Assembly: GCF_003841405.1 (NCBI RefSeq)
Contig: NZ_PXYA01000003.1
Span: 434,001 to 498,000 of the forward strand
Length of the DNA: 64,000 nucleotides
Source of the DNA: Tetragenococcus halophilus subsp. halophilus DSM 20339
GTDB lineage: Bacteria > Bacillota > Bacilli > Lactobacillales > Enterococcaceae
Direction of reading: 5' to 3'
The notes beneath the pieces are model-generated. The model was given only the letters and a program-made list of their open reading frames with translations. It made no database searches and had not been told where the DNA came from. Below are positions 3 to 61,491 of the stretch, piece after piece (position 1 is the stretch's first letter; every line of letters starts with the position of its first letter). Position numbers and translations under genes: made by a program.

Positions 3-557
3 ATCCTTTACAAAGACGAAAATGTGTTAGAAAAAGGATATAATCTACCAAAATATCGTACGCATTTAGGCATGGTCTTTCAATCCTTTAATCTATTTGC
101 CAACATGGATGTATTAGAAAATTGTACAACCGGACAAACGACGGTTTTAAAAAGAAAGCCTGAAGAAGCAAAAGAGATTGCGTTAAAACATTTAAAAAAT
201 GTTGGAATGGACCAATTTGTTTCTGCTAAACCAGCTCAATTATCTGGCGGACAAATGCAAAGAGTAGCCATCGCTCGTGCTCTTTGTATGAACCCAGATG
301 TCTTGCTTTTCGATGAACCAACATCGGCTCTTGACCCAGAAATGATCGGTGAAGTATTAAAAACGATCCAGGATCTAGCAGAGACTGGACTGACTATGGT
401 CATTGTTACGCACGAAATGAGTTTTGCTAGAGATGTTTCCGATCGAGTGATTTTCATGGATCAAGGCCTTATCGCCGAAGAAGGAGCGCCGACAGAGTTA
501 TTTGATCATCCAAAAGAAGCACGAACACAAGAATTCTTAAAACGAATTCGTTCATAA
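3..557 (+). CDS. amino-acid ABC transporter ATP-binding protein (5' truncated by window edge)
   Basis: Energises uptake of a polar amino acid, probably the glutamine/glutamate or cystine class, as the cytoplasmic ATPase of an ABC importer. The frame is open back to base 3, so the Walker A segment and N-terminus lie outside the window. Visible parts are a Q-loop ([10 protein letters not shown]), the ABC signature [15 protein letters not shown], Walker [14 protein letters not shown] and the switch histidine in VTHE. The C-terminal '[15 protein letters not shown]' is typical of the GlnQ/HisP polar-amino-acid subfamily. Permease and binding-protein partners are not visible, so the substrate is unassigned. 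A terminator follows directly. Confidence 0.93.
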
Positions 558-3169: not shown

Positions 3170-4177
3170 TTATACAAATTTATCTTGATAAGGATATTGG
3201 AAATGTTCATAAGAACGAGCTGTAGCAACTCTTCCTCGCGGCGTACGTTTTAAAAATCCTTTTTGAATTAAAAATGGTTCATACATATCTTCTACAGTTT
3301 CCCGTTCTTCTCCAATGTTTACCGATAATGTATTTAAACCAACCGGCCCACCTTCATATAATTCAATCATCGTCTTGATTAACTTTTGATCAATATAATC
3401 TAGTCCTTCATTGTCCACCTGTAACAAAGATAAAGCTTTATCCGCTATTTTTTGATCAATCACGCCATCAGCTTGCACTTGCGCAAAATCGCGAATTCTT
3501 TTTAGTAAACGATTAGCAACGCGAGGAGTACCACGAGAGCGACGGGCAATTTCTATAGCCCCTTCATGAACAATTTCTGTTTGAAAAACAGAGGACGAAC
3601 GTAAAACAATTTCTTTTAAGTCTTTTTCCTCATAATACTCCATATGAGAAATAATTCCAAAGCGATCTCTTAAAGGAGCTGAGAGCATACCCGCTCTAGT
3701 TGTAGCACCAATTAAAGTAAAAGGTGGTAAAGGAAAATGCACCGGATGACTTGTTGTACCTTGCCCCACCATGATATCAACATAGAAATCTTCCATGGCA
3801 GAGTATAACATCTCCTCAGCAACTCTTGGTAGCCGGTGGATTTCATCTATAAATAATACATCACCAGGTTCTAATTCATTCAATGTAGCAATTAAATCTC
3901 CCGGTTTTTCAATAGAGGGGCCACTTGTTGTACGTATATGTACTTGCATTTCATTGGCGATCACCATTGCCATCGTAGTTTTTCCTAAACCAGGTGGGCC
4001 ATATAACAGGACATGATCAAGCGCTTCTTCTCTATTTTTAGCCGCTTGAATATAGATCTTCAACTCTTCTTTTACCTTATCTTGCCCAATATATTGTGAT
4101 AATAACTGGGGACGTAATGATTTTTCATAAAGTTCTTCTTCCTGACTTGCGTTTGGTGATCCCATCCGTTCTGCCAT
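3170..4177 (-). CDS. ruvB: Holliday junction branch-migration ATPase RuvB
   Basis: Hexameric AAA+ motor that, with RuvA, drives branch migration of Holliday junctions in recombinational repair. The 335 residues include Walker [10 protein letters not shown], Walker [10 protein letters not shown], sensor 1 GATTRAG, the arginine-finger segment APLRDRFG and the C-terminal winged helix ending '[22 protein letters not shown]'. An upstream in-frame ATG at 4195 exists, but ATG 4177 is correctly spaced from AAAGGAGGG. It lies 33 bp after ruvA, the usual operon order. Confidence 0.97.
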
Positions 4178-6208: not shown

Positions 6209-6324
6209 GCGTGGCGATGTCCTACTCTCACAAGGGGAAGCCCCTCACTACAATTGGCGCTAAGAAGCTTAACGACTGTGTTCGGCATGGGAACAGGTGT
6301 CTCCTTCTTGCCATCATCACCACA
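6209..6324 (-). rRNA. rrf: 5S ribosomal RNA
   Basis: About 116 nt. The minus strand begins TGTGGTGATGATGGCAAG, contains the conserved loop 'CCCATGCCGAACAC' and ends in GCCACGC. Ends are approximate to a few bases. An 85-bp spacer without tRNA separates it from the 23S gene. Confidence 0.95.
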
Positions 6325-6409
6325 CAACTTGACGTTGAGTGAACCTTTTGGTTCCCTCAAAACTGGATGAAAAACAACTTCTCGCTTCACCGAAAATCCA
6401 AACCTTTGT

Positions 6410-11105
<4,696 letters not shown>

Positions 11106-58198: not shown

Positions 58199-60091
58199 TT
58201 AACGATGTTTGTTCCTATCCTCGGCTTGTTTGCGTAGTTGCTTTTGTGCTTTTTTAGAGCCACGGTCAATATCTTTATTGAATTTTCTTTCATGAAAATC
58301 AATGAAGAGTTGCTCTAAATCGTAGTTTTCCGGATATAAGTGTTCCCTAGATATTTCTAGTGTCAAACGCTTCAAAAGCACCGTATAAAATTGTTTGTTT
58401 ATAGAAATTTGTGCATGATCATGATCTTGGTAGCTATAGAAAAGGCCGCTCTCTTTTAACTCCTGACTCCAAATGCGATCCCCTTTTTGAAAAACTGGCT
58501 GAGCAGAAGATTCTTTTAAAGAGCGTTGTGGTTTTTTCCGCTCAATTTTTGCCGTCGTATAATTTTTATCTACCAAATACTGTTGCGCATTCTGCAAAAT
58601 TTCCGGATAAATTTCCATTTTTTGAGCAATCCAAAAAGCGTTGCTTTGACCTACTTGATTGAGTAAAAGTTGATATTTTGGCGTTAAAGTTGCTGAATCA
58701 AAGGCCATAGCTGCCGTTTGAAAATCTTCATGCTGCAAAGCAAAATCTTTAATCTCACCATAATGCGTGGTAGCAATAATGATAGCTTTCTTTTTATACA
58801 TATATTCCATGGTAGCAATCGCCAAAGCAGCCCCTTCATTAGGCTCTGTGCCACTACCAAATTCGTCTAATAAAATAAGAGTATTGTCCGTTGTTTGGTG
58901 CAAGATATAACTGATATTTTGCATATGGGCAGAAAAAGTACTCAATGAATTTTCCAAGCTTTGCTGGTCTCCAATATCGATAAAAATTTTCTTGAAAATT
59001 CCTATGGAGGAATTTCCTCCATGGTTAACACACAGCCCAAATCCTGTCATTAAGCAAACCAAGGCAATCGTTTTTAATACCACTGTTTTCCCGCCGGCAT
59101 TCGGTCCAGTAATAATTAACCCGCGATTATCTACCCCTAGGGTCAAATCTAGTGGAACAGCATCTTGCAATAGTGGATGTTTTACCTGGTCGAAAATAAG
59201 TTCTTCTTGATCATTTATCGCGATCTTTTTGCCATCGATGCTCTGACTGTATTTTCCCCGAGCAAAAATACTATCCAACTCCACCACAATATCTATACAA
59301 TAACCAATCGCCGTTGCTTGTTCAGCGATTATTCCTGTTAATGTCGCTAAAATTTGATAAACCGCTGCTGTTTCTTCACTTTTTGCAATAATTAATTGAT
59401 CATTTAACTTGCGTACACTTTCGGGCTCAATAAAAACGGTAGTTCCTCAATTGGATCGCTCAATAATCGTCCCTGCGATTTTTGATTGAAAAGTTGATTG
59501 AATAGGTAAAGTATAACGGTCCTCTTTTTTTATGAACAGTCGCTCTTGTACCCAACCATTTGCCGTCGCTTTTTTCAACAACTTATCACAACTTTTTTCA
59601 ATAGTTGCCTGGATATCAGCTGTTTTCCCGCGGATTTTCTTTAACTCTCGCGAAGCCTCATCTTTTACACGGTTTCCATCGACCTTTTCTTGAATAGTCG
59701 TAATAATCTTTTTAAATTCTGTTAGATCATTTGCATAACGAAATAAAGTCGGCGTCTGATATTGATTTTTTTCAAAGAAAGCAGCAATCAAATGAAAGGA
59801 ACGTAAAAAATCGCTATATTCAGTTAATTCACTTGCTTCTAAGATAGCCCCATTTTCAATTTTCTTCGTTAAATATTTAATTTGACTCAAACCCATAAAT
59901 GGGACATGTTGATTCGAATTTAAGATTGCCAATGCTTCTTGCGTCTCGGTTAACCTTTTTTGCACCATATTATAACTAATAGCAGGTTGCTTGTTTTCTA
60001 ATCGTTCTTTAGCATAATCACTAATACATCGATCAATAACGTTTTGCTTAACTTTTGTAAATTCTGTTGCGTCATATAAAGCTGAATTCAT
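58199..60091 (-). pseudogene. MutS2-like ATPase without Smr domain, interrupted by in-frame TGA
   Basis: The frame runs 60091 to 58199 (630 codons plus stop) but has TGA at 59449-59447, after codon 214. Both sides stay in the same frame, so it is a nonsense change and not a frameshift. The N-part resembles MutS2 core/lever ('VKDEASRELKKIRG'). Translation resumes as 'GTTVFIEPESVRKL', a MutS2 hallmark. The ATPase has Walker A 'GPNAGGKTVVLKT', Walker B 'LILLDEFGSGTEPNEG' and 'ATTHYGEIKDFAL'. It is shorter than MutS2 (about 780 aa) and lacks the C-terminal Smr nuclease domain. A sequencing error or read-through cannot be excluded. Confidence 0.85.
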
Positions 60092-60229
60092 TTTTTATAT
60101 CCTTTCTTATTGGAAATAAGATACCCTAAAAACAACGAATTCACTCGTTTTCGTAAAAATAAGTTATTCTAACTTTTGAAATTTTCCATTGTGGTGGCTA
60201 ATATTAAAGGCTATTCGAAGTAAAGGACA

Positions 60230-60397
60230 CTACGCCTCGCTTCCGCTCGCCCTAGTACTGTTCATCATCTACTTTCAACTCCCCTTGGTCGCTGAATCGT
60301 AGTGATTCGGTTTGGGGAACTACGCTCGCTCCTCTCGCCTAGTACTGCTCATCATCTACTTTCAACTCCCCTTGGTCGTTGAATCTTAGTGATTCAC
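60230..60397. repeat. two direct repeats of about 80 bp upstream of the mutS2-like gene
   Basis: Copies at about 60230-60310 and 60320-60397 share 'CATCATCTACTTTCAACTCC' and end in GTGATTC, with small differences near the start (CTCGCTTCCGCTCG versus CTCGCTCCTCTCG). No coding potential is recognised. Confidence 0.8.
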
Positions 60398-60402
60398 AGC
60401 AA

Positions 60403-60574
60403 AAAAGGCGACAGGAAGCCCCATCACCTTTTTAACATTCATTGTTTTCTCAGGTATCTAAAGGCATAACAAATAAGCTTGCCAAAATTTTAGCTTATTT
60501 GTATTCAATTGCTAATTTTAGATACCTACGACACTCATCAAGCAACCTCTTTCTTTAGAAAACGAGTTTTATTT
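60403..60574 (-). ncRNA. putative structured leader or small RNA (unassigned)
   Basis: A minus-strand transcript of about 170 nt is predicted from the promoter at 60581-60609 to the terminator near 60405. Its core is a nested hairpin: AGGTATCTAAA/TTTAGATACCT (plus 60512-60522 and 60452-60462) enclosing AAATAAGCT/AGCTTATTT. Upstream is 'AGAGGTTGCTTGATGAGTG'. It has no open reading frame with a ribosome binding site. It could be a riboswitch/attenuator for the mutS2-like gene or an independent small RNA; I could not match it to a known class. Confidence 0.5.
60405..60435 (-). terminator. intrinsic terminator of the putative leader RNA
   Basis: On the minus strand AAAAAGGTGA pairs imperfectly with TCGCCTTTTTT (plus about 60403-60433), ending in a T-run. 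It lies about 140 nt downstream of the long hairpin promoter start and 310 bp upstream of the mutS2-like ATG. Confidence 0.65.
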
Positions 60575-60580
60575 CCATTT

Positions 60581-60609
60581 ATTCTAAGATAATTTCTACT
60601 ACTTGTCAA
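60581..60609 (-). promoter_or_regulatory. promoter driving the putative leader RNA
   Basis: Minus-strand TTGACA (plus 60604-60609), exactly 17 bp, then TAGAAT (plus 60581-60586), 32 bp downstream of the DUF123 gene stop. Confidence 0.78.
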
Positions 60610-60640
60610 AGAAAGCTAATGATCTCTAAGAAAAAATGAT

Positions 60641-61039
60641 TTAATGAAAAGTTAGCATTGGATTTTTTTCAGTATAAAATAAATGCGATACACATTTACA
60701 ATCAGAGGAGCCAAAGCCTTTTGCTGGAATGCTTCCATTATTTCTTTCTCGCAATCCTGCAAAAAGCTGACATTCACCATCTTTACCTGAATAAGTTTGG
60801 ACTTCTTCTATCTTTAAAAAAGGACGCAGATAATCCAAATGCCAACGCTGCTTTTTTTCTACTGCGATATGTCTATTGACCCTTGAGCGAATATTACGTT
60901 TGGCACTACCTACATAAACGTAATATCCTTTTTCAAATGCAAAATGACCCAGCTTGCCTATCTGTATACTTTCTTGTCTTTTAGGAAGGTACCCTTTCAC
61001 CGCATAAAGTGTATGACTTTCTTTGATTGATTTCTTCAT
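60641..61039 (-). CDS. GIY-YIG/DUF123 domain protein
   Basis: A 132-aa putative nuclease-fold protein. 'EKGYYVYVGSAKRNIRSRVN' is the GIY-YIG-like core (Y-Y-V-Y-V-G-S-A with Arg following). 'RWHLDYLRPF' and 'GFGSSDCKCVSHLFY' are DUF123 signatures. Activity is unproven. ATG 61039 has GGTGG 6 nt upstream; ATG 61045 abuts that site. It is 35 bp downstream of a GNAT gene, on the same strand. Confidence 0.87.
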   Translation of the reverse strand: MKKSIKESHTLYAVKGYLPKRQESIQIGKLGHFAFEKGYYVYVGSAKRNIRSRVNRHIAVEKKQRWHLDYLRPFLKIEEVQTYSGKDGECQLFAGLRERNNGSIPAKGFGSSDCKCVSHLFYTEKNPMLTFH

Positions 61040-61080
61040 TTTCATCCACCTTTTAACTACTACTAAAAATTATTTTAACC

Positions 61081-61491
61081 TCAATAAATGCGATACATCC
61101 CCACTGAACCTGGCGCAGTATAACAAAAACCAAACTGTTGATACAATTTATCGGCCGGACTATCAGCAATTAAGCTAACATATGAGCCTTTAAATGTATG
61201 AGTGTCTAAATAGCCCATAATTTCTGTCATTACTTTTTTACCGAGACCTTTTCTTTGATAAGAAGGGTTTACAGCAATATCTACTACATGAAAAACAGTG
61301 CCCCCATCGCCAATCACTCTTCCCATAGCAATTAGGCAACCTCTATCATAGATCGTAACAGCAAACAGGGTATGCGAAAGACCAATGACAACTGCCTTAC
61401 TATCTTTAACGCTAAGTCCTGCTTTTCGTCTTAATTGGTTGAAACTTTCAGTACTTGGTATTTCATATCTGATTTGATAATTTTTCTCCAT
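61081..61491 (-). CDS. GNAT-family N-acetyltransferase
   Basis: A 136-aa single-domain acetyltransferase. Motif A is 'VVDIAVNPSYQRKGLGKKVM' with the Q-x-x-G-x-G pyrophosphate loop ('QRKGLG'); motif B is near 'ADKLYQQFGFCY'. Acceptor substrate unknown. GAAGGGAAGA precedes the ATG. Probably co-transcribed with the DUF123 gene. Confidence 0.9.
   Translation of the reverse strand: MEKNYQIRYEIPSTESFNQLRRKAGLSVKDSKAVVIGLSHTLFAVTIYDRGCLIAMGRVIGDGGTVFHVVDIAVNPSYQRKGLGKKVMTEIMGYLDTHTFKGSYVSLIADSPADKLYQQFGFCYTAPGSVGMYRIY

Follow-up and report, generated by a model that had tools for sequence, protein, structure and literature searches.

Translation attenuators of the ermC type work by a change of partner, in that a stalled ribosome frees arm 2 of the leader, which pairs with arm 3 and thereby opens the Shine-Dalgarno (SD) sequence in arm 4. 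Translation attenuation of ermC is named in PMC6310831, the accessible part of which also describes the hflXr/rli80 locus of Listeria monocytogenes, with a 14-residue RLR leader peptide, an antiterminator and an HflX protein. For cplR, an excerpt of PMC10201436 shows attenuation at both the transcriptional and the translational level. In Bacillus subtilis, collided ribosomes are split by the ATPase of MutS2, and a mutS2 mutant shows hypersensitivity to chloramphenicol, tetracycline, and erythromycin (PMC10897456, in excerpt). Among the open-licence PMC papers returned by searches on MutS2, as judged by titles, abstract openings and excerpts, none describes a leader peptide or attenuator for MutS2.

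We analyzed the DNA upstream of a short MutS2-like gene in Tetragenococcus halophilus, in a stretch of 64,000 nucleotides hereafter called the window. Our results suggest that the leader of this gene is probably a ribosome-sensing attenuator of the ermC type, supplemented with a terminator.

Layout of the locus and the downstream gene

The following features were identified, in the order in which they would be transcribed.

60581..60609, minus strand: sigma-70-type promoter TTGACA-17-TAGAAT, 11/12 consensus matches
60558..60567, minus strand: arm 0, ACTCGTTTTC, 5′ strand of the long-range helix P0, 10/10 pairs with 60152-60143
60546..60549, minus strand: SD GAGG of the leader ORF, read from the sequence
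60518..60538, minus strand: leader ORF ATG AGT GTC GTA GGT ATC TAA, Met-Ser-Val-Val-Gly-Ile-stop
60516..60527, minus strand: arm 1, the end of the leader ORF with its stop codon, 5′ strand of the outer stem
60527-60517/60462-60452, minus strand: outer stem, 11 bp, no mismatch
60469..60502, minus strand: inner hairpin P2, ACAAATAAGCT/AGCTTATTTGT, with a perfect 11-bp stem (60502-60492/60479-60469)
60452..60462, minus strand: arm 2, TTTAGATACCT, alternative partners arm 1 or arm 3
about 60401..60433, minus strand: intrinsic terminator, a hairpin of 13-14 bp ending in a T run
60251..60395, minus strand: dispersed repeat, two copies between the terminator and arm 0′, inserted sequence outside the putative switch
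60143..60152, minus strand: arm 0′, GAAAACGAGT, 3′ strand of P0
60119..60125, minus strand: arm 3, GGTATCT, partners arm 2 or the SD of the MutS2-like gene
60100..60104, minus strand: arm 4, the SD AAGGA of the MutS2-like gene, pairing with arm 3 in the local fold
58199..60091, minus strand: short MutS2-like gene, MutS core and ATPase with no Smr match, one in-frame TGA at 59449-59447

The promoter, the nested hairpin with its perfect 11-bp outer stem and the downstream terminator, proposed on the minus strand by a first-pass annotation, were all confirmed. The same annotation had described a stretch without a reading frame that ended at 60403, and both statements had to be corrected: a six-codon ORF with an SD (GAGG, seven bases, then ATG) is present, and the element continues as far as the MutS2-like start codon at 60091. 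The promoter ranked first among 10 promoter-like sites in 2 kb, where 6.6 were expected, and the RNA predicted to start near 60574 and to end near 60401 would be about 174 nt long, in line with the transcript of about 170 nt expected by the first-pass annotation. Folding of a 175-nt RNA gave −51.1 kcal/mol versus a shuffled mean of −32.0 (z −5.6), with none of 200 shuffles as good. The two repeat copies (60251-60308 and 60338-60395) are 58 nt each, 95% alike and 87 nt apart; 28 further matches to this repeat were found in the genome (E ≤ 1e-4), several of them side by side, and it had no Rfam match at the gathering score. Upstream on the same strand, 60641-61491 holds genes for a DUF123 protein (Pfam PF01986) and a GNAT acetyltransferase. 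The sole Rfam match at gathering score in the whole window was a complete rRNA operon on the minus strand (6209-11104).

The element had initially been left without a known class, and an Rfam covariance-model search of 60080-60680 agreed with this, giving nothing credible at E ≤ 10. The six matches in this range were all far below their gathering scores; the CsrC match corresponded to the terminator hairpin, the STnc40 match included the same hairpin, and the lysine riboswitch (RF00168), of which the 5′ end had seemed reminiscent, was not among the six. A structured leader with conserved internal-loop letters around TTGAATA and GTGC is what a ligand-binding riboswitch might offer, but no Rfam family matched credibly and the 5′ strand of the hairpin is a peptide-coding ORF whose third-codon letters vary at Val3, so that the riboswitch reading suggested earlier appears extremely improbable. 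Its companion suggestion, an attenuator upstream of the mutS2-like gene, finds support in what is presented below, namely conservation of the leader ORF, alternative pairings, and the genes that follow.

The protein encoded by the short gene consists of a MutS core and ATPase domain V. No Smr domain was matched at E ≤ 0.001 in Pfam or NCBIfam, either in the two pieces from the window or in two relatives, and in these relatives the NCBIfam mutS2 match stopped at profile positions 535 and 522 of 790. The length is about 630-700 residues versus about 785-840 for housekeeping MutS2. The predicted structure of a relative (AlphaFold, pLDDT 83.8) best matched MutS2 chains from B. subtilis and Thermotoga, and ended in five strands (residues 541-582), which may represent a KOW-like barrel. 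By analogy with its family, the SMR-less MutS2 is probably a ribosome splitter.

In T. halophilus itself, the element could be the relic of a dying gene, a reading compatible with an attenuator in relatives. The gene of the window is interrupted by the in-frame TGA, the open frame in T. halophilus subsp. flandriensis is likewise 215 residues, and repeats are inserted in the leader. However, the leader ORF, arms 0-3, the promoter, and the terminator are all retained, and the gene of T. solitarius has an open frame of 631 residues behind a leader that is 92% identical. Open frames of less than 450 residues were found in five of the 85 family genes. Decay is thus a possibility to be taken seriously, although not the one that we favour, and the leader element may no longer be important in T. 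halophilus.

Leader ORF and alternative pairings in the family

Of the 105 family genomes, 85 carry the short MutS2-like gene, matched at E ≤ 1.2e-40 with 37-100% identity across the first 214 residues; the lower-scoring protein matches listed (23-30% identity) are housekeeping MutS2 of about 785-840 residues. Leader DNA came from upstream regions fetched for 75 genomes and, for the other ten, from the window or earlier loci; main start codons were set by hand in twelve genomes, and leader positions in three. A strict first pattern gave a leader in only 5 of the 105 genomes. A short leader ORF preceded by an SD-like site, the latter defined by a lenient pattern, was detected in 85/85 genomes having the gene; the first leader finder required TGAGTG[TC], and Ser2 and part of Val3 in its 85/85 are therefore built in. 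Because that finder fixed Ser2, a second one without fixed letters after the start codon was run, which picks the ORF whose end pairs best downstream; it returned a Ser2 ORF in 78/85 genomes and the identical ORF in 77/85. A scan for a Ser2 ORF with an SD and a matching arm was positive in 83/85 family genomes versus 30/255 shuffles. A promoter-like site (score ≥ 10/12) was located 5′ of the leader ORF in 68/85 genomes versus 5/85 shuffled controls.

The most frequent leader peptides were MSVSI (17 genomes), MSVVGI (16), MSVVI (12), MSVAGI (9), MSVLGI (8), and MSVTGI (8), the remaining 15 being single forms. Val3 was present in 84/85 leaders and used all four GTN codons (GTA 62, GTC 13, GTG 5, GTT 4), with GCA at codon 3 in one genome, and the stop codon was TAA in 84/85. 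Ahead of mef-like and polyamine genes the Ser2 codon is AGC, and two genomes from other orders use TCT or TCC; it is therefore the amino acid that is kept. Sequence comparison shows the leader ORF, its coding constraint, its link to the gene, and the alternative pairings described next.

The leader hairpin had z < −2 in 75/85 family genomes, and arm 1 against arm 2 alone was matched by at most 10 of 200 shuffles in 60/85, these and all following pairing shuffle counts over genomes ignoring the kinship among them. On the alignment, 85.0% of cells were paired for the hairpin structure versus 38-53% for slid versions, and its covariation score was matched by 0/500 shuffles; two-sided pair changes were no more numerous than in shuffles (168/500). 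RNAalifold returned no pairs from the 81-row leader alignment, for which gaps were blamed, so the hairpin pairs, including the P2 exchanges, were counted on a structure named by hand. Conservation in related genomes and compensatory stem changes had been set out beforehand as checks on the element; the former was found and the finding survived the latter. By eye, the internal loops of the hairpin (TTGAATA and GTGC; columns about 45-60 and 100-105 of alignment A1) seemed over-conserved for a plain attenuator.

Arm 2 also has a partner near the main gene. The arm 2:arm 3 pairing was equalled by at most 2 of 200 shuffles in 68/85 family genomes versus 3/85 for a control stretch, and the best ungapped 10-bp helix contained at least 8 pairs in 74/85; one of its pairs was G-C in 32 genomes and A-T in 31. 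The duplex of the window is weak (−13.7 kcal/mol; 10/200 shuffles as good). When arm 3 was swapped between genomes, 58-60 of 85 still had at most 10 of 100 shuffles as good; since such swaps are largely tolerated, conservation lies in the sequence as such, with limited covariation. The local arm 3:arm 4 fold reached the level of ≤10/200 shuffles in only 32/85 genomes, and in the window the fold of arm 3 onto the main SD had −5.9 kcal/mol, with 42/200 shuffles as good. The spacer between arm 2 and the main start codon ranged from 108 to 492 nt.

The long-range helix P0, formed by arms 0 and 0′, was tested in 76 of the 85 genomes, nine being dropped for a spacer of less than 20 nt after the terminator. 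Cognate pairs were at ≤10/200 shuffles in 57/76, whereas swapped partners reached the laxer ≤10/100 in 10-15 of 76, and control stretches gave 2/85 and 7/85. P0 varies in sequence among clades; Tetragenococcus, for instance, has ACTCGTTTTC/GAAAACGAGT where another genus has ATGAATAGCCAAAGAA/TTCTTTGGCTTATTCA. The strands of P2 were also tried as partners of arm 0 and rejected (3′ strand 16/85 at ≤10/200; 5′ side 2/85).

These pairings bear on whether the terminated leader could be a stand-alone small RNA acting in trans, as its own promoter-like site and terminator, together with the lack of terminator release in the folding model, would allow. Most loci, however, place the leader upstream of one gene family, both arm 2 and arm 0 find complementary sequence next to the SD of this MutS2-like gene, and for arm 0 the best partner is the one from its own genome. 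The conserved pairing close to the SD of the downstream gene speaks for action in cis, and we regard a trans-acting RNA as very unlikely.

The effect of a stalled ribosome in cis was modelled through a masked footprint, Val3 being placed in the P site. For a transcript starting 20 nt ahead of the leader ORF (−20), masking increased the arm 2:arm 3 pairing in 72/85 genomes (mean 0.10 to 0.45) and raised access to the main SD in 45/85, lowering it in 4; the main AUG opened in 47/85 and closed in 23, its access in the window rising from 0.02 to 0.95. For a transcript from −35, which includes arm 0, the nested model favoured P0 and cannot hold both P0 and arm 2:arm 3, because these helices cross. 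Masking then increased arm 2:arm 3 pairing in only 16/85 genomes, SD access rose in 11 and fell in 2, and almost no change was seen in the window. With 60 nt upstream, SD-AUG access rose in 15 genomes and fell in 5. The main SD was paired with the arm-3 region at a mean of 0.55-0.57 in the model. As the outcome was mixed and depended on the transcript start, the evidence from sequence for the alternative pairings is stronger than the support of the energy model for a switch.

A terminator-like hairpin was present in 83/85 family genomes. Masking did not relieve the terminator, its pairing passing from 0.917 to 0.906 (a fall in 8 and a rise in 4 of 83 genomes). Antitermination by arm 2, the sole strand tested as antiterminator, was rejected, its pairing with the 5′ half of the terminator being at ≤10/200 shuffles in 5/83, not above chance.

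Distribution outside the family and other downstream genes

Of 395 genomes in the order, 86 were matched at E ≤ 0.01 by a covariance model (R1) built from 81 distinct leaders; 57 of these belong to the family and 29 lie outside it. All 14 family genomes listed as unmatched were among the 20 that lack the short MutS2-like gene, and the model gave no match in 20 housekeeping mutS2 regions. In the phylum, three of 398 genomes matched, namely that of the window, a second from the same order, and one from a different order, in which the match precedes a MutS2-like gene.

Among 36 further loci, 28 stood before MutS2-like genes, these assignments being made by profile for two, by alignment for ten, and by eye for the rest. 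Leaders were also found before Mef(A)-like MFS genes at two loci (L182 and L184; the Mef match is under the curated cut-off), before an RsgA-RNHCP gene at one (L183), and before fusion genes of BpsA and AdoMet decarboxylase (BpsA-SpeD) at five (L185-L188 and L190); of these non-MutS2 targets, L184, L186, and L187 were assigned by eye and the other five by profile. Leader peptides of the further loci include MSVTDI, MSVIISN, MSVTMSI, and MSSVTVSI, as well as MAIVAISI, which has Ala2, and leaders with Gly3 exist (MSGVCI and MSGVVSK). A pattern scan of named genomes gave 28 loci, 26 of them upstream of a MutS2-like gene, that of Ohessyouella blattaphilus included; the leader of Lapidilactobacillus gannanensis precedes rsgA, and one further locus was too short to judge. 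Five of 15 leader matches (L019-L023), for which tblastn found no MutS2 gene, were dropped as chance, and plasmid searches with two leaders gave no match.

Outside the family, pairings were counted for 48 of 49 loci, L220 being left out for want of a leader ORF (R1 E 0.045): at ≤10/200 shuffles, arm 2:arm 3 was found in 36/48 and P0 in 21/48, and some of these automatically picked arms look wrong (L164 and L172).

Three side observations concern individual groups of loci. In Ohessyouella blattaphilus (Lachnospiraceae; L115), a leader and a MutS2-like gene occur outside the Bacilli (parts at 53% and 41% identity) and were probably acquired by transfer. At the rsgA-like loci, inspection by eye showed a second tiny ORF with an SD after the leader, MTEGI-stop at L183 (about 280-390, reverse strand) and MPIAVK-stop at L120 (about 3230-3420), and these loci possibly carry two switches in a row. 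Leaders of mef-like and polyamine genes (L182, L184, L185, and L188, with variants in L186 and L187) have an extra stretch, TCTATAGATATTCTTACAT..CTCAA, after arm 2, which was not seen in MutS2-like leaders; they perhaps represent a second leader subtype.

In a search by protein alone, 200 genomes of the class were searched and the 20 best short MutS2-like genes from other orders (the same class, but a different order from the host) were taken, with G740 left out as one already seen. A Met-Ser ORF with an SD and a matching arm preceded 19/20 of these genes, while the same kind of scan gave 2/20 for housekeeping mutS2 of the family, 29/200 for shuffles, and 4/20 for the other strand. The peptides were MSEVVSA in ten loci of one genus, MSVVGSK in two, and further MSAVGSN, MSAIGSN, MSAVGSK, MSLVVSSK, MSEVGMS, MSVVGIN, and MSV. 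In the ten loci of that genus (L201-L203, L206, L208-L211, L213, and L214), an in-frame ATG lies two codons upstream, nearer the SD, and would give MLMSEVVSA; the letter-free finder takes this upstream start, and it returned Ser2 in only 7/20 genes of other orders (housekeeping 0/20). The R1 model matched 13 of these 20 genes at E ≤ 1 and 7 at E < 0.001.

The composition of the leaders and the nature of their targets were also considered with respect to a sensor of general translation slowing, or of a shortage of Ser, Val, or Ile as in biosynthetic attenuators, instead of an antibiotic. Val and Ile are indeed frequent in the leaders, and a ribosome-rescue factor could respond to any stalling. 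On the other hand, the MutS2-like gene is not biosynthetic, the leader has a single conserved Ser codon and a widely varying position 4, and efflux-type genes follow related leaders. Such a sensor is therefore unlikely, although less so than the riboswitch or a trans-acting RNA.

Proposed mechanism and relation to known systems

For an attenuator that senses stalled ribosomes, we propose the following course. In the uninduced state, the six-codon ORF would be read quickly, arms 1 and 2 would form the hairpin, and most transcripts would stop at the terminator, while in readthrough RNA arm 3 would cover the main SD. Upon induction, a ribosome would come to a halt within the first codons, the likeliest position having Val3 in the P site and Ser2 just behind it; its footprint on arm 1 would free arm 2, which would take arm 3, and the main SD would open. 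P0 would bring the leader's 5′ end next to the segment that immediately precedes arm 3, and very different spacer lengths could thereby be tolerated, including that of Tetragenococcus with its two repeats. The stalling and its inducer, the succession of steps, the function of P0, and the activity of the protein are all inferred.

Since the product would be an SMR-less MutS2, probably a ribosome splitter, the likely signal would be stalled ribosomes. The inducer is perhaps a peptidyl-transferase antibiotic of the phenicol/oxazolidinone class, a proposal that we make with considerable reserve. Chloramphenicol and linezolid stall ribosomes best with Ala, and less with Ser or Thr, as the next-to-last residue (excerpts of PMC8987054 and PMC11832420), and the conserved Ser2 fits a stall at codon 3, whose footprint also falls on arm 1. 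When Gly occupies the P site, chloramphenicol has hardly any effect (PMC11832420, same excerpt), and the Gly3 leaders speak against one stalling rule; the Mef-like targets would hint at macrolides. Exposure of E. faecium to chloramphenicol raises a MutS2, although the excerpt of PMC12441150 does not say which MutS2. A wider proposal, which we consider conceivable and put forward tentatively, is that an ancient leader shared by Lactobacillales and other orders of Bacilli, with a stall after Met-Ser and a long-range, pseudoknot-like switch in which P0 crosses arm 2:arm 3 over spacers of ~100-490 nt, senses peptidyl-transferase stress and drives a small regulon against stalled ribosomes comprising the SMR-less MutS2, RsgA-RNHCP, a Mef-like exporter, and the polyamine fusion.

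If the attenuator reading is right, enterococci and many other Bacilli would possess, beside HflXr, a second ribosome-splitting route controlled by the sensing of stalls, and a gene commonly assigned to DNA repair would become a candidate for inducible antibiotic tolerance. The leader would moreover hint at the class of inducer and offers a ready reporter.

Like housekeeping MutS2 of B. subtilis (PDB 7qv3 and 8qpp), the product has a MutS core and an ATPase, but no Smr domain was matched in the short MutS2-like protein, which has fewer residues. As at hflXr/rli80 in the accessible part of PMC6310831, a leader ORF and a premature terminator precede a paralogue of a ribosome-splitting factor of which the genome has a second copy; unlike hflXr, the leader peptide has 3-8 residues, mostly begins with Met-Ser, and no antiterminator was found, arm 2 having been tested. 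Very short uORFs also precede the ARE-ABCF genes cplR, vmlR, vmlR2, and lsaA (MRI or MRM, MIN, MK[L/Q], and MAGN, in the excerpt of PMC10201436), the targets of which differ from ours, which is not an ABCF; and in cplR, according to the same excerpt, the terminator hairpin itself hides the SD, whereas in the MutS2 leader the SD would be hidden separately downstream. With ermC, the locus shares a leader ORF within the 5′ arm of a hairpin and the arm 2:arm 3 alternative, although the peptide is Met-Ser-x instead of an erm leader, a MutS2-like ATPase is the target, and the leader has a terminator between the two hairpins and a helix, P0, that ties its ends together. To our knowledge, a long-range helix of this kind, with letters that change from clade to clade, is absent from the antibiotic attenuators described so far.
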